This document shows, one piece after another, positions 1,558 to 60,275 of a DNA stretch of 64,000 nucleotides; the stretch's first letter is position 1; every line of letters begins with the position of its first letter. Origin of the DNA: Cepaea nemoralis (taxonomy: Eukaryota; Mollusca; Gastropoda; Stylommatophora; Helicidae); contig JACEFZ010026862.1 in the NCBI GenBank assembly GCA_014155875.1, positions 186,001 through 250,000 on the forward strand. Reading direction: 5' to 3'. A program made the position numbers and the translations under genes. The notes below the pieces were generated by a model. The model was not told the origin of the DNA. It ran no database searches and saw nothing but the letters and a program-made list of their open reading frames with translations.

Positions 1558-1660
1558 ATTGATTATGTGGTTGTTTCGGGATTTGAAATTTAAATATTGA
1601 GCACAACCCACTACTGGCAACGCTGATCGCATTCCGGTATGAACCTAAGGCCTATCCACG

Positions 1661-1730
1661 CCAATATGGAAGCACTAGACTCGAGTTTCGCCCTCATTTG
1701 AGCTCGTCAGTAGTGCACATCCCTGACCGG
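1661..1730 (-). ncRNA. Type I hammerhead ribozyme, monomer 1
   Basis: Read on the minus strand, the core at 1672-1716 has every conserved part: stem I 5' strand GCACTA; CTGACGA; stem II GCTC/GGGC with a 6-nt loop AAATGA (one G-T pair); GAA; stem III ACTCGAGT, which gives 2-3 bp and a very small loop; then C at the cleavage site (GTC) and the stem I 3' strand TAGTGC. The predicted cut is between 1678 and 1677. An outer stem I extension is possible between CCGGT (complement of 1726-1730) and ATTGG (complement of 1661-1665). The weak stem III is like that of animal satellite-DNA and retrozyme hammerheads, which often act as tandem dimers. Confidence 0.85.
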
Positions 1731-2064
1731 ATCCGGAAACAGTCCCGGATCACGCGTGTGAAGCGGGTGTGTAACCACGCGGCACACACTGGACACACCA
1801 AATTATCACAACAGAATACCACAACGCTACCCATCGTAGGCTATGCTCAAGATTGCCCAATCGCCGCGATCGACGTCCGTCAATCGATGGGACCCGAAGG
1901 ATCAGGACTTCTCACTGGCAAGGAACACCAGGCCTCCTGAAATCCAGTGAGCAACAATCAAATTGATTATGTGGTTGTTTCGGGATTTGAAGTTTAACTA
2001 TTGAGCACAACCCACTATTGGCAACGCTGATCGCATTCCGGTATGAACCTAAGGCCTATCCACG

Positions 2065-2134
2065 CCAATATGGAAGCACTAGACTCGAGTTTCGCCCTCA
2101 TTTGAGCTCGTCAGTAGTGCACATCCCTGACCGG
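2065..2134 (-). ncRNA. Type I hammerhead ribozyme, monomer 2
   Basis: The 45-nt core at 2076-2120 is identical to that of monomer 1, including CTGACGA, the 4-bp stem II, GAAA and the GTC cleavage triplet. Predicted cut between 2082 and 2081 on the minus strand. Confidence 0.85.
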
Positions 2135-2468
2135 ATCCGGAAACAGTCCCGGATCATGCGTGTGAAGCGGGTGTGTAACCACGCGGCACACACTGGACAC
2201 ACCAAATTATCACAACAGAATACCACAACGCTACCCATCGTAGGCTATGCTCAAGATTGCCCAATCGCCGCGACCGACGTCCGTCAATCGATGGGACCCG
2301 AACGATCAGGACTTCTCACTGGCAAGGAACACCAGGCCTCCTAAAATCCAGTGAGCAACAATCAAATTGATTATATGGTTGTTTCGGGATTTGAAATTTA
2401 AATATTGAGCACAACCCACTACTGGCAACGCTGATCGCATTCCGGTATGAACCTAAGGCCTATCCACG

Positions 2469-2538
2469 CCAATATGGAAGCACTAGACTCGAGTTTCGCC
2501 CTCATTTGAGCTCGTCAGTAGTGCACATCCCTGACCGG
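2469..2538 (-). ncRNA. Type I hammerhead ribozyme, monomer 3
   Basis: The 45-nt core at 2480-2524 is again unchanged from the other monomers. Predicted cut between 2486 and 2485 on the minus strand. Perfect conservation of this block fits either recent amplification or selection for activity. Confidence 0.85.
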
Positions 2539-2897
2539 ATCCGGAAACAGTCCCGGATCACGCGTGTGAAGCGGGTGTGTAACCACGCGGCACACACTGG
2601 ACACACCAAATTATCACAACAGAATACCACAACGCTACCCATCGTAGGCTATGCTCAAGATTGCCCAATCGCCGCGACCGACGTCCGTCAATCGATGGGA
2701 CCCGAACGATCAGGACTTCTCACTGGCAAGGAACACCAGGCCTCCTAAAATCCAGTGAGCAACAATCAAATTGATTATGTGGTTGTTTCGGGATTTGAAA
2801 TTTAAATATTGAGCACAACCCACTACTGGCAACGCTGATCGCATTCCGGTATGAACCTAAGGCCTATCCACGCCAATATGGAAGCACTAGACTCGAG

Positions 2898-3403
2898 AAT
2901 TGAGCTTGTTTACTAGCAGTTTCTAATTGCATCTTTTTCTCTTCTCTTTCCGCTTGCATCTTTTTATCTTCTCTTTCCGCTTGCATCTTTGTCTCTTCTC
3001 TTTCCGCTTGCATCTTTTTCTCATCTCGTTCCGCTTGCATCTTTTTCTCTTCTCTTTCCACTTGCATCTTTTTCTCTTCTCTTTCCGCTGCCCTATCTTC
3101 TCGTGCTATGTTTTCTAAATGTGTCTTTTGTGCCCATTCTAAAAGTTTATCGGCGGTATAACCTAATTTAACTAATGTTTGACGACTCAATCATGACGTA
3201 GCTATATTTCTGCTGTGTGACCTTGAAGTTTACTGTAACTTAAAATTCCGAAATGGAGCAGAAATGAATCAAATAAACCACTGATCATTTTGTGGCACTA
3301 AAAGGACCAAATGCCATCATAGGGAAACCAATGTGGCACCAGATGATCCCTTGGTAGCGAAAGAGTTAATTCCTAATTCGATGCAGTGTTCTAATGTTGA
3401 CAT
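2898..3403 (-). pseudogene. gag N-terminal fragment with coiled-coil repeats
   Basis: The frame matches the gag N-terminus of LTR-B (GYTADKLLEWAQKTHLENIA followed by a charged region). The charged region has about eight near-identical units of the type MQAEREEKK, predicted to form a long coiled coil. The start codon at 3403-3401 and its first eleven codons are separated from the rest by a ~180-bp insertion (about 3190-3370). The fragment ends inside the 404-bp repeat junction at 2897/2898. Confidence 0.75.
3190..3370. other. Unclassified ~180-bp insertion in gag
   Basis: Alignment by eye to the LTR-B gag start shows that this block is extra. Its plus-strand right end reads GGTAGCGAAAGAGTTAA, which resembles the ends of some piggyBac-type MITEs (TTAACYCTTTCG...). 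I see no matching inverted end on the left, so the class is uncertain. Confidence 0.35.
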
Positions 3404-41300: not shown

Positions 41301-41338
41301 TAAAAAAAAATATTTTTTTTTAAAAATACTTTTTACAA

Positions 41339-42277
41339 CTGGTGTTGCAAATACTGCCAGTTGCTCAAGGGAAGGACCAGTGCCAGCTGGGAAACAAATT
41401 TGGCTGCCACCCCAGCAATGTCCACAAACTGCTGCTGAAAGCCAAGGATCTGGACGTGAATGTGATGGGCGTTAACTTTCATGTTGGTAGTGGGGTTGGT
41501 GAGGCTAAAGCATTTGCTTATGCTGTGAAGCAAGCTCATGAGGCCTGGGAGATTGCTACTGAACTTGGCTTTAAGATGACCCTCCTCGACATTGGCGGTG
41601 GATTTCCTGGGCAGTCCAACGCCCCAATCACTTTTGCTGAGATTGCGACTGTGGTGAATGAAGCCTTGGACACCCTATTTCCCTGCCGGGAACGGTGTTC
41701 GCATCATTGCAGATTCAGGGAGGTACATGGTTGCATCTGCTTTCACCTAGCCGTCAACATCATTGCCAAAGGGACGGTGGTGAATGATTCATCTGATGCA
41801 GAGGACAGTAGCCAACCCTCACACATGTACTACGTCAACGATGGAGTCTATGGGTCCTTCAACTACATCATATATGATCATGCTCACCCAGAGCCCAGGG
41901 TTATCTCTGATTCTCCGGATAGATTCATCTCTTCCGTCTGGGGTCCGACCTGTGATGGTCTGGACTGCATTATTCAAGAGTGCAAACTGCCAGAGTTGGA
42001 TGTTGGCCACTGGATGTACTTCACAGATATGGGCGCTTACACCATTGCCGCAGGATCCACTTTCAACGGCATGCCCCGGCCCCAATTCTTCTATGTCTGC
42101 AATGAGGATCTTTGGAACCAAGTGTACCCACAACACAGTGCACCAAAGAGGAGATGTGAAAGCGTATCTTGCGACGCAGATTTCCCTCTACTTATGACAG
42201 GACCAGATATGCGGTCTCTCAGGGAAGCGGCCAGCTCAATTTCCTGCTGTACTGAAGATGAGATTGTTTTTGCATAG
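41339..42277 (+). pseudogene. ODC1: Ornithine decarboxylase processed pseudogene
   Basis: A 311-codon frame matching the C-terminal two thirds of ODC, the PLP enzyme that makes putrescine. Visible are KFGCHPSNVHKLLLKAKDLD, the HVGSG substrate/PLP loop, LDIGGGFPG (glycine-rich phosphate-binding loop), SVWGPTCDGLD with the active-site Cys-Asp, and FNGMPRPQFFYV. The PLP-binding lysine of the N-terminal barrel is lost by 5' truncation. Two compensating one-base changes (an insertion at about 41692 and a deletion at about 41748) scramble some 17 residues at the PLP-contacting E-P-G-R-Y region and then restore the frame. It is intronless with TSD and poly(A). It could not be an active enzyme. The Cys-Asp pair favours ODC over antizyme inhibitor. 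Confidence 0.9.
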
Positions 42278-43145: not shown

Positions 43146-45539
43146 GTTAGTTAGTCGACAGATCATCCTCGTTGCACATCGGACCATTCAGTCCATAAGT
43201 GCTCGGATCCCCTCCTCAGCAAATCCCGCAGCGTGTAGCGGCTAACGACGCCAGTTCTGTGTTGGTTTATCAATCTTCTTTGGCTTCCTGCGTAGTGTTC
43301 TTGTTTGGCCACCCCTCTTTTAATTTGCTGCTCTCGCAGTCTGGCCATTGTTGTAGATTCACAGTCATCACTTGGTTCTTGCAAAAGTCTCACTTCTCGT
43401 AGAGCATTCAGAATGTCAGCCTGGTCCATGGCGCGTCCGCCCTCAACAGTAGCCTCACCTGCGAGCTTGTCAGCCCGCTCATTTCCTTGTACTCCCGCAT
43501 GCCCTGGCACGAAGATGAAACTAATCTTTGCCAGCCGAGACCGCTTCAGAGGCAGCAACCATTCTCTTCGGATTGACCCCTCCTCTATCCTCTTGATCAT
43601 GTTCATTGAGTCGCTAAGGAAACAAGCCCTAGTGAATGTCTGTGTCTCGAGCCATGTTATTGCTTTACTTACTGCCATGACTTCCATGGTCAGGCTACTT
43701 GTGGTTTCAGTGAAAGCACCAGAGTCCTCCTTCACAATTCTCCCTCCGGCCCGAGCTGTAAAGGCCCATGAGCTTCTCACATGTCGGACGACCGACCCAT
43801 CTGTGTAGATGACCGCGTCACTGTCTAGCGAATTCTCGAAAATCAACGCTTGTACTTCAGCCTCAACAGCAGCCGGATTTTCTTGTCTGCATTTTCTATC
43901 TAGTTGGATGCAAACTGAAAAGGATGTGCAGAAGTCTGTTGGCACTTGCACCCACTCCTCGCCAGGTTCTAAGTCCTCAAGTGAACACACCTGTTGAAGA
44001 ATGTCCTCGGCTTGCCCCATCCACGACCGTCCTCTTTTTAACCTGCTGCCCTTCACCTTCCTAATTTCACTATGCAGTGGATGCTGTGTGTTTGCATTAA
44101 TTCTGAGGTAGGCACGTGCCCTGCAAACTTGCATTCTCTCTTCAATGGTTGGAAAATCAAGGAGGTAGCGCATCGCCCTGCATGCTGTATCTCTTGTACA
44201 TCCAAGAATAATGCGCATAGCTTCATTCTGTATCCTTTCCATCCTTTCTATCTGCTTATGGCTGAGAGTCAGGATTGCCATTGCATACTCCAAAACAGAC
44301 ATGACCAGCCCCTCGTACAGAAGACATAGATGGCGCTGCTCACAGTTTGCTGCCGCCATCACCCGCATCGCTGCCAAACCCCGCTTGGCCTTTGTTATCA
44401 CCTGGTCTATGTGCACATTATAAGCAAGGCTTCGATCAAACCGTATCCCCAGGTAATTCATTGCCTGCGTTCTTTCCACCGTCTCTGAACACAGCATTAC
44501 AGTTGGTGTTGGCTTGTTGACAATATGATTATTCAACGAGAACCAAGTCACTGTTGCCTTTGTTGGGTTGACCATTGCCCCAGCTTCATCACACCAAGTA
44601 CTTATGCGATTGAGTTCGGTTTGTAGTTCCACAGCAACCTCCTCTCTATCCTTACCCTGACGATACACTAAAACATCATCGGCATATGACAATGTCCTGC
44701 CAGGTCCAGTGATCTGCTCACTGGTGATTCTCACTGTGTAGGCGTTGAACAGTACCGGAGATAATGGTGATCCCTGTGGTAGGCCAGGATATATTGTTGT
44801 TGGTTCCGAAGTCCAACTGCCACATCTAAAAACTACTTTCCGTTGGAAGAGAGCTGCAGCGATCCAACTAAGGAGGAATGAACTTACGTTTAGTTCAAGA
44901 AGCTGAAACATTAAAAAATCCAGTGGTACTCTGTTGTATGCGTCCTCAAGATCAATCGCTGCAGCAACGGTTTCAGTGCCTGAGTGGAAACCTTCATAGA
45001 CATCGTGGGCAAAGACTGCTGCATTGGTCCAGGTTTCTCTTTTTGGACGGTACCCACCCAGGGTAGGTGGGAAAACACCTTGCCTCTCTAGTTGGCTTGA
45101 TATTTTCCTGGCAATTACCTTCTCCAGCAGCTTGCCTATTGTATTCTGCATGGTTATAATTCGATATCCCTGAATTTTCTTGTGGTCTTTGTCAGGCTTC
45201 GGCAAGGGAATCAGATAGCTGTGTAACCATTCCTCCTTGATGCTAGCACTCCCTATACTGTTGTTGTACATGTCTGCTAGTTTCTCTAGCTCATTGTCGG
45301 TACACCTATTTATGTCGTCGTATCTTATGCCATCAGGACCTGGAGCACTGTTTTTTGATCGTCGAAGCACAGCCTTGATTTCTTTCACTGTCACTGTGTC
45401 TTCATCCGAAGTGTTCTGGGCCTTGCATCTGTCTGAGGTGACCTCCTTGGCCAGATTCCGGCCTCCCATGTCTGTCTGGTTGCTCTGCTCAAGGTAGCGT
45501 TCAAAGAGGGCTTTGCCCTTGTCCTCGTCAGTCCTCTGC
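43146..45539 (-). mobile_element. I-type LINE, family I, 5'-truncated, young
   Basis: Minus orientation, (TTAG)n tail at 43144-43154 and 5' truncation at about 45537. It is flanked by a 13-bp duplication AAGAAAAGTGTTA at 43133-43145 and 45540-45552. It lies in the 3' UTR of the ODC retrocopy, so it is younger than that retrocopy. Confidence 0.9.
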
Positions 45540-45541
45540 AA
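43163..45541 (-). CDS. I-type LINE RT and RNase H, open frame of 792 codons
   Basis: Nearly identical to the C-terminal 790 residues of the full-length copy at 56346-60023. RT motifs: SAPGPDGIRYDD (65-76), AAIDLEDAYNRV (catalytic Asp197), GLPQGSPLSP (253-262), LSYADDV (YADD 286-289). RNase H: YTDGS (Asp581), ME (Glu620), SDS (Asp644), FVPGHAGVQGNERADKLA (Asp691). The endonuclease is missing because of truncation. The frame runs two bases past the element into the flanking duplication, so the first Met-Gln is not native. Confidence 0.88.
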   Translation of the reverse strand: MQRTDEDKGKALFERYLEQSNQTDMGGRNLAKEVTSDRCKAQNTSDEDTVTVKEIKAVLRRSKNSAPGPDGIRYDDINRCTDNELEKLADMYNNSIGSASIKEEWLHSYLIPLPKPDKDHKKIQGYRIITMQNTIGKLLEKVIARKISSQLERQGVFPPTLGGYRPKRETWTNAAVFAHDVYEGFHSGTETVAAAIDLEDAYNRVPLDFLMFQLLELNVSSFLLSWIAAALFQRKVVFRCGSWTSEPTTIYPGLPQGSPLSPVLFNAYTVRITSEQITGPGRTLSYADDVLVYRQGKDREEVAVELQTELNRISTWCDEAGAMVNPTKATVTWFSLNNHIVNKPTPTVMLCSETVERTQAMNYLGIRFDRSLAYNVHIDQVITKAKRGLAAMRVMAAANCEQRHLCLLYEGLVMSVLEYAMAILTLSHKQIERMERIQNEAMRIILGCTRDTACRAMRYLLDFPTIEERMQVCRARAYLRINANTQHPLHSEIRKVKGSRLKRGRSWMGQAEDILQQVCSLEDLEPGEEWVQVPTDFCTSFSVCIQLDRKCRQENPAAVEAEVQALIFENSLDSDAVIYTDGSVVRHVRSSWAFTARAGGRIVKEDSGAFTETTSSLTMEVMAVSKAITWLETQTFTRACFLSDSMNMIKRIEEGSIRREWLLPLKRSRLAKISFIFVPGHAGVQGNERADKLAGEATVEGGRAMDQADILNALREVRLLQEPSDDCESTTMARLREQQIKRGVAKQEHYAGSQRRLINQHRTGVVSRYTLRDLLRRGSEHLWTEWSDVQRG

Positions 45542-46371
45542 GAAAAGTGTTAAAATCTCTTAAAAAAATTCAGCATAATGCACAGCAAAGCTAGACTTCG
45601 TCAGCTGTACCAGAATTGTTATTTCATCTCTGTACTTCTGGATGTTGATCAGCTGTCAAAGTTATGTTCTATCACAACCATTAGTGAATATCAGAAAAAA
45701 TTAAAGCAAACTGTCAGACAGGTTAGCTAGTTTTTCTAGCTGGAAATTGCATGCTCCTGCTTACATTCACCTCACTGGGACCATGTCAGAACATCAAGTG
45801 ATTGTACCCCATGTGTTCATGTATTGTTTCTTTTAATCAACTTTCAGCTTCATTTTTTGAGAACTCATTACACACCGTTTGGTTATTTAAAAAGTTGTCA
45901 GGATATTTGCACAATTAGCCAGCTTGTTTGTATTTTCTCAAGTTGGTTTGATGTCATTTGGGGATGTTTTCTATCCAATCTTTACGCATATATTTAGAGG
46001 ACTAGTTTGTGTATCAGTATAAAGAGTAGGTTTTAGTTTGGTGATGGTGGTTCTGGAACCCAATGTTATTTAAAATGTCATACCATCATTAACATTGATT
46101 TTACAAGTTAAAGGTTTGGAATAGTGGTCATATTTATGGGCACTGGGTACTCCTAGGCAAGCTGCGTGCATTTGTACAGATGGGGTTGTATAATTGTATG
46201 TTACTGCAGAGTAGAAACAAGCTTGAGTTGTACAAATCATAGGAAACGCCTGCATGTATAGTATTGATGGCCAGCATATTGTGCATTGTACTTCCATGTT
46301 ATTTAAATATACTATTGTCTGAATAACATTTTTGGGTATTTGTAAAAAAAAAAAAAAAAAATACTTTTTAC

Positions 46372-56321: not shown

Positions 56322-59300
56322 TTAGTTAGTTAGTTAGTCGACAGATCATCCTCGTTGCACATCGGACCATTCAGTCCATAAGTGTTCGGATCCCCTCCTC
56401 AGCAAATCCCGCAGCGTGTAGCGGCTAACGACGCCAGTTCTGTGTTGGTTTATCAATCTTCTTTGGCTTCCTGCGTAGTGTTCTTGTTTGGCCACCCCTC
56501 TTTTAATTTGCTGCTCTCGCAGTCTGGCCATTGTTGTAGATTCACAGTCATCACTTGGTTCTTGCAAAAGTCTCACTTCTCGTAGAGCATTCAGAATGTC
56601 AGCCTGGTCCATGGCGCGTCCGCCCTCCACAGTAGCCTCACCTGCGAGCTTGTCAGCCCGCTCATTTCCTTGTACTCCCGCATGACCTGGCACGAAGATG
56701 AAACTAATCTTTGCCAGCCGAGACCGCTCCAGAGGCAGCAACCATTCTCTTCGGATCGACCCCTCCTCTATCCTCTTGATCATGTTCATTGAGTCGCTAA
56801 GGAAACAAGCCCTAGTGAATGTCTGTGTCTCGAGCCATGTTATTGCTTTACTTACTGCCATGACTTCCATGGTCAGGCTACTTGTGGTTTCAGTGAAAGC
56901 ACCAGAGTCCTCCTTCACAATTCTCCCTCCGGCCCGAGCTGTAAAGGCCCATGAGCTTCTCACATGTCGGACGACCGACCCATCTGTGTAGATGACCGCG
57001 TCACTGTCTAGCGAATTCTCGAAAATCAACGCTTGTACTTCAGCCTCCACAGCAGCCGGATTTTCTTGTCTGCATTTTCTATCTAGTTGGATGCAAACTG
57101 AAAAGGATGTGCAGAAGTCTGTTGGCACTTGCACCCACTCCTCGCCAGGTTCTAAGTCCTCAAGTGAACACACCTGTTGAAGAATGTCTTCGGCTTGACC
57201 GATCCACGACCGTCCTCTTTTTAACCTGCTGCCCTTCACCTTCCTAATTTCACTATGCAGTGGATGCTGTGTGTTTGCGTTAATTCTGAGGTAGGAGCGT
57301 GCCCTGCAAACTTGCATTCTCTCTTCAATGGTTGGAAAATCAAGAAGGTAGCGCATCGCCCTGCATGCTGTATCTCTTGTACATCCAAGAATAATGCGCA
57401 TAGCTTCATTCTGTATCCTTTCCATCCTTTCTATCTGCTTATGGCTGAGAATCAGGATTGCCATTGCATACTCCAAAACAGACATGACCAGCCCCTCGTA
57501 CAGAAGACATAGATGGCGCTGCTCACAGTTTGCTGCCGCCATCACCCGCATCGCTGCCAAGCCCCGCTTGGCCTTTGTTATCACCTGGTCTATGTGCACA
57601 TTATAAGCAAGGCTTCGATCAAACCGTATCCCCAGGTAATTCATTGCCTGCGTTCTTTCCACCGTCTCTGAACACAGCATTACAGTTGGTGTTGGATTGT
57701 TGACAATATGATTATTCAACGAGAACCAAGTCACTGTTGCCTTTGTTGGGTTGACCATTGACCCAGCTTCATCACACCAAGTACTTATGCGATTGAGTTC
57801 GGTTTGTAGTTCCACAGCAACCTCCTCTCTATCCTTACCCTGACGATACACTAAAACATCATCGGCATATGACAATGTTCTGCCAGGTCCAGTGATCTGC
57901 TCACTGGTGATTCTCACTGTGTAGGCGTTGAACAGTTCCGGAGATAATGGTGATCCCTGTGGTAGGCCAGGATATATTGTTGTTGGTTCCGAAGTCCAAC
58001 TGCCACATCTAAAAACTACTTTCCGTTGGAAGAGGGCTGCAGCGATCCAACTAAGGAGGAATGGACTTACGTTTAGTTCAAGAAGCTGAAACATTAAAAA
58101 ATCCAGTGGTACTCTGTTGTATGCGTCCTCAAGATCAATCGCTGCAGCAACAGTTTCAGTGCCTGAGTGGAAACCTTCATAGACATCATGGTCAAAGACT
58201 GCTGCATTGGTCCAGGTTTCTCTTTTTGGACGGTACCCACCCAGGGTAGGTGGGAAAACACCTTGCCTCTCTAGTTGGCTTGATATTTTCCTGGCAATTA
58301 CTTTCTCCAGCAGCTTGCCTACTGTATTCTGCATGGTTATAATTCGATATCCCTGAATTTTTTTGTGGTCTTTGTCAGGCTTCGGCAAGGGAATCAGATA
58401 GCTATGTAACCATTCCTCCTTGATGCTAGCACTCCCTATACTGTTGTTGTACATGTCTGCTAGTTTCTCTAGCTCATTGTCGGTACACCTATTTATGTCG
58501 TCGTATCTTATGCCATCAGGACCTGGAGCACTGTTTTTTGATCGTCGAAGCACAGCCTTGATTTCTTTCACTGTCACTGTGTCTTCATCCGAAGTGTTCT
58601 GGGCCTTGCATCTGTCTGAGGTGACCTCCTTGGCCAGATTCCGGCCTCCCATGTCTGTCTGGTTGCTCTGCTCAAGGTAGCGTTCAAAGAGGGCTTTGCC
58701 CTTGTCCTCGTCAGTCCTCTTCCAGTTGAGGTCAGCACCTTGGAAGTCTGAAATGCTCTTATTCTTGACTACACCACTCATGCTTTTATGTAGTCGCCAG
58801 AACAATTTCAGTGACTTGTCTGTGCTTACTCTTTGACACACCTCTGCCCATTTTTCGCTTTTAACCACCTTGACCAGTTTTTTGAAATAGCTTACTTTTG
58901 TGTGCATCTCTCTTTCTAAGTGCAAGTAGGGACTAGGACGACCAGCTCTGTTCTTCTTGGCATTTTGCCATCTCCTTACAGCACTACGCTTATCCACCCA
59001 AGCCTTCTCCACCTCGAAACTCCACCACGGTGGCTGCTCCCAGCTTTTTCTCCTGCCCTGAAGCGTTCTGCGCTTGTCACGTCTTATTTTGCTCACCACA
59101 TCTTGCCCTGTACTGTCATACTGGAACGTCTTTACCTTTAGCTTGTGCTGCCTGGTTCTGCCTTTCTCCACCAATATGCTGCAAGGGTGGTGGTCGCTGC
59201 CATGGTGTCCTAGGACACCCCATCTACACACTGTAGTGAGTGAAGGTGAAACAAGCGCCAGATCAATAGCACTGTCCTCATCGCCTGGACGGCTTGCTGT

Positions 59301-60070
59301 CCTGGTGACACAGCCACTGTTGATACAAACCAGGTCGATGGTTTCCAGTGCAGTCTCGAGCTCCTCCCCTTGTGTATTGGAGGAAGTGTTTCCCCATGAT
59401 CTGCCTTTAGCGTTGAAGTCACCACAGAAAATAACATTTCTCTCGTGGCCTAATATGCCACTTAAGCACTGCCACTTCTGGGCGTCCACACTCGCATTGC
59501 GGGCATAAACATTAACCAACACGAATGGTATACTGGAATGAACTCTCAACGCCTGTATTTGTATATTGTCACTGTCCCAACTGGACATGTCTAGCTCTGA
59601 CGCCACCATGCTGTCGCGAACGAGAATCGCCGTTCCCAGATGTCGTCTGTTGTAGAAACATTTGAAGCCGGCAATTCGGAGTAGCTGATCGCCCAGTCTC
59701 GTCTCCTGGAGTCCTACACTGTCGTTCCTGTAAACTAGGGTTTCTAAAATAGAGCCCCGTTGTTTTACACTGGCACAGTTCCAATATAGAATACGGATGT
59801 TCCTGAGTCCTAGACGGTGACACTTGAGTCTAAAACGTCTCAAACCCCCGCGCTTACCTTGCTTCTTTGTCCCTGCGCGGCTACCACGCCGCTTCGTTAT
59901 GTTGACTGCTGATCGCTCGGAAAGAAGACGTTCTTCCGCCATGTTGAAAAAACGTAAACACAGACTGCTGATAACCACACACGCTGCTGAAAATTCACTC
60001 AAGGATGGCTTCGCTCGATGCACGAACTCCGTAGCACCCGCGCAGATCTTGAGTAGAAACTCCTGGTTTA
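56322..60070 (-). mobile_element. Full-length I-type LINE, family I, intact
   Basis: 3749 bp on the minus strand between a perfect 14-bp duplication TATATCACAACATG (56308-56321 and 60071-60084). It has a (TTAG)n tail in plus-strand reading (56321-56338), a 3' UTR of only about 10-20 bp, one ORF of 1225 codons and a 47-nt 5' leader. The RNase H domain and simple-repeat tail place it in the I superfamily (I/Nimb-like clades are common in molluscs). No separate ORF1 is present. Confidence 0.9.
56346..60023 (-). CDS. I-type LINE polyprotein: APE endonuclease, RT, RNase H (1225 aa)
   Basis: A single intact frame. Residues 40-75 are very basic. The APE-type endonuclease covers about 75-285: LYWNCASV (79-86), LQETRL (105-110), GDFNAKGRSWG (201-211), DLALVSP (254-260) and SDHHP (276-280), so all catalytic landmarks are present. 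The RT covers about 480-800: motif A IDLEDAYNRV (Asp630), GLPQGSPLSP, YADD (719-722). RNase H covers about 1008-1130: YTDGS (Asp1014), Glu1053, Asp1077 and GNERADKLA (Asp1124). A second Met at residue 28 (59942, MAEERLLSE) is an alternative start. The protein should nick target DNA and copy its own RNA there. Intact domains plus a clean TSD suggest recent, perhaps ongoing activity. Confidence 0.92.
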   Translation of the reverse strand: MHRAKPSLSEFSAACVVISSLCLRFFNMAEERLLSERSAVNITKRRGSRAGTKKQGKRGGLRRFRLKCHRLGLRNIRILYWNCASVKQRGSILETLVYRNDSVGLQETRLGDQLLRIAGFKCFYNRRHLGTAILVRDSMVASELDMSSWDSDNIQIQALRVHSSIPFVLVNVYARNASVDAQKWQCLSGILGHERNVIFCGDFNAKGRSWGNTSSNTQGEELETALETIDLVCINSGCVTRTASRPGDEDSAIDLALVSPSLTTVCRWGVLGHHGSDHHPCSILVEKGRTRQHKLKVKTFQYDSTGQDVVSKIRRDKRRTLQGRRKSWEQPPWWSFEVEKAWVDKRSAVRRWQNAKKNRAGRPSPYLHLEREMHTKVSYFKKLVKVVKSEKWAEVCQRVSTDKSLKLFWRLHKSMSGVVKNKSISDFQGADLNWKRTDEDKGKALFERYLEQSNQTDMGGRNLAKEVTSDRCKAQNTSDEDTVTVKEIKAVLRRSKNSAPGPDGIRYDDINRCTDNELEKLADMYNNSIGSASIKEEWLHSYLIPLPKPDKDHKKIQGYRIITMQNTVGKLLEKVIARKISSQLERQGVFPPTLGGYRPKRETWTNAAVFDHDVYEGFHSGTETVAAAIDLEDAYNRVPLDFLMFQLLELNVSPFLLSWIAAALFQRKVVFRCGSWTSEPTTIYPGLPQGSPLSPELFNAYTVRITSEQITGPGRTLSYADDVLVYRQGKDREEVAVELQTELNRISTWCDEAGSMVNPTKATVTWFSLNNHIVNNPTPTVMLCSETVERTQAMNYLGIRFDRSLAYNVHIDQVITKAKRGLAAMRVMAAANCEQRHLCLLYEGLVMSVLEYAMAILILSHKQIERMERIQNEAMRIILGCTRDTACRAMRYLLDFPTIEERMQVCRARSYLRINANTQHPLHSEIRKVKGSRLKRGRSWIGQAEDILQQVCSLEDLEPGEEWVQVPTDFCTSFSVCIQLDRKCRQENPAAVEAEVQALIFENSLDSDAVIYTDGSVVRHVRSSWAFTARAGGRIVKEDSGAFTETTSSLTMEVMAVSKAITWLETQTFTRACFLSDSMNMIKRIEEGSIRREWLLPLERSRLAKISFIFVPGHAGVQGNERADKLAGEATVEGGRAMDQADILNALREVRLLQEPSDDCESTTMARLREQQIKRGVAKQEHYAGSQRRLINQHRTGVVSRYTLRDLLRRGSEHLWTEWSDVQRG

Positions 60071-60275
60071 TATATCACAACATGCATAGGTCTAAGACAC
60101 TCATGTTTTAGTCTTAGTACTCAACATATCGGATTGGGTACAGCAATAATACAGACATCGGACAGGTGGCAGATTATAGAGAAGGACAGGGACTGCCAGG
60201 GTAGGATACCTTTAGTACAGGTGGGAAATAACATAAATAAATACAAAATTGTCAACATACACGCACCGCCTGACT

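Follow-up and report, generated by a model that had tools for sequence, protein, structure and literature searches.

Inverted arrays with two fixed ends point to Penelope-type insertion of a hammerhead retrozyme in Cepaea nemoralis

Introduction

Close to the start of a 64,000-nucleotide stretch of Cepaea nemoralis DNA (hereafter the window) lies an array of 404-bp units in which every full unit contains a hammerhead ribozyme. An initial sequence-only reading took this array for an animal retrozyme, which raises the question of how a repeat that encodes no protein is inserted at new genomic sites. Penelope-like elements (PLEs) have been named as a strong candidate for the retrozyme helper (PMC7229834, in the passage concerned), and the relevant sections of two reviews and a curation guide grade such help as likely, as possible or as something that may occur. 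In these accounts the suggestion was drawn from shared hammerheads and from the co-occurrence of the two kinds of element. We found no demonstration that PLEs mobilise retrozymes in the open-access literature covered by our search.

Results

The window array and its hammerheads

Tandem Repeats Finder described the window array with a period of 404, 3.3 copies, 98% matches and 0% indels, in agreement with the head-to-tail monomers that had been claimed (Table 1). The three full units differ from one another at 7, 4 and 5 of 404 sites, and the partial fourth unit (2770-2897) comprises 128 bases that are identical to the start of copy 1; of the 45-nt hammerhead block it has kept just 14. The claim of a type I hammerhead in each full monomer was borne out by cmscan, which returned RF00163 (Hammerhead_1) three times, always on the minus strand and, in a check set beforehand, above the gathering score of 34. 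For the first copy the predicted cleavage position agrees with that named earlier, between 1678 and 1677. Each hammerhead has a stem I of six pairs, a stem II of four pairs, one of them G-U, with a hexaloop, and a stem III of two pairs with a closing UCGA tetraloop. The unit has stops in all six frames, as expected from the claim that the array carries no protein, and possesses no reverse transcriptase (RT)/GIY-YIG frame of its own. The sense RNA corresponds to the minus strand. The array has its A end (Table 1) at 1558 and its variable end, the 5' end of the RNA, at 2897, which is unit position 128.

Table 1. Features of the retrozyme array in the window.
Feature	Position	Strand	Remarks
Retrozyme array, 3.3 units of 404 bp	1558..2897	-	One arm; Tandem Repeats Finder
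Type I hammerhead, copy 1	1672..1716	-	RF00163, 38.1 bits; predicted cut 1678/1677
Type I hammerhead, copy 2	2076..2120	-	RF00163, 38.1 bits; predicted cut 2082/2081
Type I hammerhead, copy 3	2480..2524	-	RF00163, 38.1 bits; predicted cut 2486/2485
A end, unit positions 1-3	1558..1560	-	Outer end of the window copy; recurs at other loci
B site, unit positions 29-34	1586..1591	-	Internal in the window; the other outer end at paired loci
A-to-B stretch, about 30 bp	1558..1589	-	Placed like the PLE tail, to which it may be equivalent

Judged from the type of its hammerhead, the size and tandem order of its units and the absence of protein, metazoan non-LTR retrozymes appear to be the right class for this element, as far as genomic DNA can tell. 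The unit lies inside the 150-450 bp range of tandem units in these retrozymes. Searches of phage records yielded no match.

Several other features of the window were recorded. A minisatellite of 27 bp adjoins the array (2927-3089; 6 copies, 92% matches by Tandem Repeats Finder). An open frame at 41324-42277 on the plus strand contains both ornithine decarboxylase domains (PF02784, PF00278), with a best protein match that is 58% identical. On the minus strand, a LINE frame of 1,242 codons (56346-60074) has endonuclease, RT and RNase H domains and a shorter relative at 43163-45559.

Copies elsewhere in the genome

When one 404-bp unit was used to query the 3.47-Gb host assembly, at least 203 matches with E <= 0.001 were obtained from the best 39 of 1,875 candidate places, so that copies exist well beyond the window locus. 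These counts are lower bounds because it was the best-scoring 39 of the 1,875 places that were scored, and the loci are for the same reason not a random sample. All 38 places besides the window were examined; two of them (L048 and L052) duplicate others (L033 and L051), leaving 37 distinct loci with the window included. A simple rule scores 173 of the 180 hammerhead copies as intact, and each of the 39 places has one or more of these. The arrays at the loci examined end at one of two sites, A or B, and have no flanking LTRs. We conclude that the retrozyme family is a dispersed genome repeat and that, among the places examined, it occurs mostly as inverted pairs.

Two inverted arms with unlike fixed ends

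An inverted pair of arrays is found at 25 of the 37 distinct loci and a single arm at nine, among them the window, whose copy is an A arm only. The three loci left out of both classes are L042, L062 and L051. At L042 (G000:C10822, 1278-10000) an array of more than 20 units in one orientation continues past the stretch examined, and this locus has a more satellite-like appearance than the others; at L051, with its duplicate L052 (G000:C17138), only 14 opposite-strand bases are seen at the edge of the stretch examined, and the stop of this opposite arm apparently lies next to the hammerhead cut, at unit position 118. The description of the element as an animal retrozyme stands as to its class, given the type I hammerhead, a tandem unit of about 400 bp, the lack of protein and the many loci. 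The words 'tandem array', correct for the window, proved incomplete at most places read, where the insertion consists of two inverted arrays.

The arms have their outer ends either at A, which covers unit positions 1-3, or at B, positions 29-34; in L034 the B end is at position 32 with a mismatch. Both ends are visible at 23 paired loci, and of these 20 are A/B, one is A/A (L036, in which one arm has only 26 bases), none is B/B and two (L056 and L060) have an odd end, at unit positions 320 and 377. Unlike ends at 20 of 21 loci would be expected with a probability of 1e-5 if ends were drawn independently and evenly. Measured 3' of the hammerhead cut, B lies at 87-92 nt and A at 118-120 nt. Neither a poly-A nor any other LINE-type 3' tail was seen at the ends of the loci examined, and the lengths of A and B arms did not differ significantly (p 0.09). 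The unit folds better than 100 of 100 shuffles (z -5.5); when the majority unit was folded as a circle, the hammerhead was predicted to form at +4.9 kcal/mol over the best fold, with an unpaired probability of at least 0.96 for positions 32-35 (B end) and 1-2 (A end). It is this arrangement, inverted arrays whose fixed outer ends are of two kinds, that gives a pointer to the mobilising machinery, and such inverted insertion from two fixed starts is the part that is new beyond the earlier retrozyme reading.

Target duplications

A duplicated string of at least 8 bp, microhomology included, was found at all 21 A/B or A/A loci, compared with 64 of 1,122 mismatched flank pairs under the same scoring. 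As L044, L059 and L067 lie in local repeats they were not counted, which leaves duplications at 18 of 18 usable loci; no target duplication was found at the two odd-ended paired loci. Among one-armed loci, L057 has a duplication of 9 bp, L066 one of 8 bp and L068 one of 11 bp that is offset by 9 filler bases, a length of 8 bp being reached by 12 of 992 mismatched pairs in the corresponding control. The duplication at L065 is doubtful, and at the remaining one-armed loci none stands out. The window copy, which is one of these, has AATT only, a string equalled or beaten in 417 of 1,122 mismatched pairs, and hence no clear duplication. Target duplications of metazoan non-LTR retrozymes, when present, are longer than 4 bp, which holds for the 18 usable paired loci and not for the window copy. 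At their edges most of the duplicated strings are rich in A and T, which agrees with the preference for ATT given for purified PLE protein in the relevant part of PMC11167929.

Template strand, shared variants and stops

On the hammerhead-sense RNA the fixed ends are 3' and the variable ends 5'. This is the prediction of target-primed copying of the hammerhead strand; a template of the opposite strand would require fixed 5' and variable 3' ends.

The source of the two arms was addressed with sites variable in at least three loci, leaving out L042, L048 and L052. Units differ at a rate of 0.057 within the same arm and 0.056 between opposite arms of a locus, as against 0.141 between loci, and the likeness within loci was reached by none of 200 label permutations. 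At positions 75, 78, 133 and 284 the loci with mixed variants numbered 3/34, 8/34, 3/34 and 4/32, each count lying below every one of 2,000 permutations for its position. This sharing within loci indicates that both arms were mostly copied from one kind of unit, alongside a minority of loci with mixed variants. A template of one kind fits one circle, and would fit a uniform multimer or later gene conversion as well.

Where the arms meet, the joints show overlaps of up to 10 bases or fillers of up to 17 (an overlap of 33 at L046 reflects poor alignment), and at most loci the facing stops are unrelated for the most part and far apart. Stops were counted after exclusion of L042, L061 and L062, whose ends are out of view, and of L048 and L052, giving n = 58; one end of L053 lies beyond the stretch examined. 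Four of the 58 fall at 118-122, where run-off at the hammerhead cut would be expected (p 0.006). Both arms of L064 stop exactly at 120, the first nucleotide after the hammerhead cut, and the stop at 121 in L060 belongs to the odd, rearranged arm. Stops at 367-404/1-31, near the start sites, number 28 of 58 against 9.9 expected, in an interval picked post hoc. A Rayleigh test of clustering gave p 0.051, and arm lengths modulo 404 were not significant (A 0.21, B 0.18, arms over 430 0.34). With a post hoc interval and no support from circular statistics, the clustering near the start sites, suggestive as it is, was dropped as evidence.

The search for a helper

Searching the genome for GIY-YIG domains gave at least 107 matches in the best 150 of 2,019 candidates, and at one place a PLE-like RT/GIY-YIG frame of 909 codons, with an RT score of 27.9 bits (below the Pfam threshold of 29.6) and a GIY-YIG score of 26.6 (above 22.6). 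Two PLE frames, L069 and L070, were rejected as helpers, having neither a hammerhead match nor a sequence match to the unit. Among at least 120 relatives listed for the PLE, four bear organism names, every one a gastropod, which is no more than a hint at the host. A further candidate, C283, has two hammerheads lying 5,285 bp from each other within direct repeats that are 98.5% alike over 787 bp. Each of its repeats comprises unit positions 206-1, ending exactly at A, and a 1,501-base piece between them showed no helper frame and matches other repeats; given this repeat content and the frameless piece, C283 was read as a 5'-truncated copy duplicated with its surroundings and was likewise rejected. 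A pattern with GGGC before the core gave two matches, against none in the control, and this lead failed. No PLE with ends matching A and B was found among the two PLE copies examined. A helper PLE is what we infer from the shape of the insertions.

In the same genome, a pattern for hammerheads of the minimal type that PLEs are reported to carry, which lack stem III, gave 795 matches of at least three forms against 28 in a reversed control, and other type I hammerheads score up to 47.9 bits. These matches suggest that the genome contains several further ribozyme families.

Discussion

The insertion of this family has a shape that points to PLE-type machinery, in so far as shape can be judged by analogy and from genomic DNA. 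Purified PLE protein of Anolis cuts and extends both target strands and carries out reverse transcription from two adjacent internal sites, and the stretch between the two starts, 30-40 bp, constitutes the genomic tail (PMC11167929, in the parts describing these reactions). The start is given there as 111-118 nt into the frame, which on the printed RNA amounts to a distance of 82-89 nt in the 3' direction from where the GUC triplet ends. For Adineta, the corresponding part of PMC3846280 describes Penelope copies with inverted pLTRs, one of which may bear a tail of 31 bp, and with duplications of 8-10 bp. We conclude that the element is probably an animal retrozyme, non-autonomous and of the non-LTR kind, whose insertion proceeds by reverse transcription of the PLE type.

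The course of insertion may be pictured as follows. The minus strand of an array would be transcribed and the RNA cut by its hammerheads into 404-nt units, which would then be closed into circles, as in published retrozymes. A PLE protein would bind this RNA and cut both strands of an AT-rich target, an event that would leave the duplications observed. On the hammerhead-sense RNA, reverse transcription would be primed by both cut strands, from B (87-92 nt 3' of the hammerhead cut) in one case and from A (118-120 nt) in the other, in line with the fixed ends. Each reverse transcriptase would copy a variable number of units, possibly as laps of a circle, producing the arrays seen, and the two DNA ends would be joined through the few shared or filler bases of the joints, to give inverted arrays. 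We put at about an even chance the full version of this course, in which PLEs are the retrozyme helpers and one small circular ribozyme RNA is copied simultaneously by two reverse transcriptases, one per cut target strand, from sites about 30 nt apart and for several laps each, with the products joined mid-way. If it is true, each insertion records in readable form a target-primed reaction of the two-strand, rolling-circle kind. The two-start signature that was reported for a purified PLE protein is seen here in the retrozyme insertions. As the unit is short and repeated, every locus shows where each of the two primings took place, which strand served as template and how many units were copied. 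The helper, and the way in which PLEs integrate, thereby become accessible to tests with a very short RNA.

The second arm might arise differently within the same machinery, if the first cDNA snapped back or primed its own copying; alternatively, the template might be a linear multimer and no circle be involved. Self-priming has been proposed for Adineta PLEs (PMC3846280, in its section on these elements), the arms of L034 and L044 stop at nearly the same place, and a linear template would account for the run-off-like stops at 118-122, with both arms of L064 ending right after the cut, and for uniform variants per locus just as well as a circle. Snap-back, however, predicts like outer ends and close facing stops, and neither is what most loci display; we regard these variants as possible, though on balance doubtful. 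Some other target-primed retrotransposon could also mobilise the RNA. LINE frames are common in the window, and twin priming, which would give the inversion, is known for L1. To our knowledge, no LINE has two such starts together with the hammerhead spacing. The ends lack LINE-type tails, and two fixed starts about 30 nt apart, one per arm, at this distance from the cut are PLE features in the part of PMC11167929 that treats them, so that mobilisation by a LINE seems improbable.

Explanations at the DNA level fare less well. Inverted arms with flanking target duplications could be those of a fold-back DNA transposon whose terminal inverted repeats enclose the units, yet here one end reaches about 30 bp further than the other, the joint in the middle varies between loci, and at nine of the 37 loci there is a single arm whose inner end is variable, which makes such a transposon very improbable. 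A plain satellite, in which unequal crossing-over or circles of DNA cause the spread and the hammerhead is a passenger, would suit L042, a long array of more than 20 units in one orientation with mixed variants, and is hard to reconcile with fixed ends, target duplications and variant sharing within dispersed loci; it is disfavoured, and we consider it scarcely credible for the family. PLE-type insertion of a retrozyme thus remains the reading that we prefer.

Among known systems, the metazoan retrozymes (Cervera and de la Pena 2020, PMC7229834) share with the present family, in the sections compared, a type I hammerhead, a non-coding unit of a few hundred bp, tandem order, many copies and PLEs in the same genome. 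They are described there as tandem repeats and not as inverted pairs with two fixed ends, and a term search of that text did not find the word 'inverted'. The G+C content of 50.7% (window unit) and 50.5% (majority unit) is just above the value of under 50% reported for them in that source, which is a tendency and not a defining feature. Plant LTR retrozymes, as outlined in parts of PMC7761336 and PMC7229834, are likewise non-coding hammerhead elements thought to move via circular RNA; they have a type III hammerhead, LTRs, a primer-binding site and 4-bp duplications. The family described here is not one of them, since it matches the type I model and has no LTRs at the loci examined.

With Poseidon of Anolis (PMC11167929) and Penelope of Adineta (PMC3846280), as portrayed in the sections used here, the retrozyme has in common a hammerhead, inverted copies, two starts about 30 nt apart, an optional tail at one end, short target duplications and AT-rich targets. 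It differs from PLEs in having no open frame, the whole element being a repeated 404-bp unit, and in a hammerhead with stem III, PLE hammerheads being reported as minimal. As the unit has no RT/GIY-YIG frame, we do not class it as a PLE. The likeness, as far as the analogy extends, is one of anatomy and spacing and not of start-region sequence, in which no similarity to the Anolis PLE beyond that of shuffles was detected (228 of 500 reached the score). In one respect the retrozyme is more regular than these PLE accounts, in the parts compared: in almost all paired insertions each of the two starts serves one arm.
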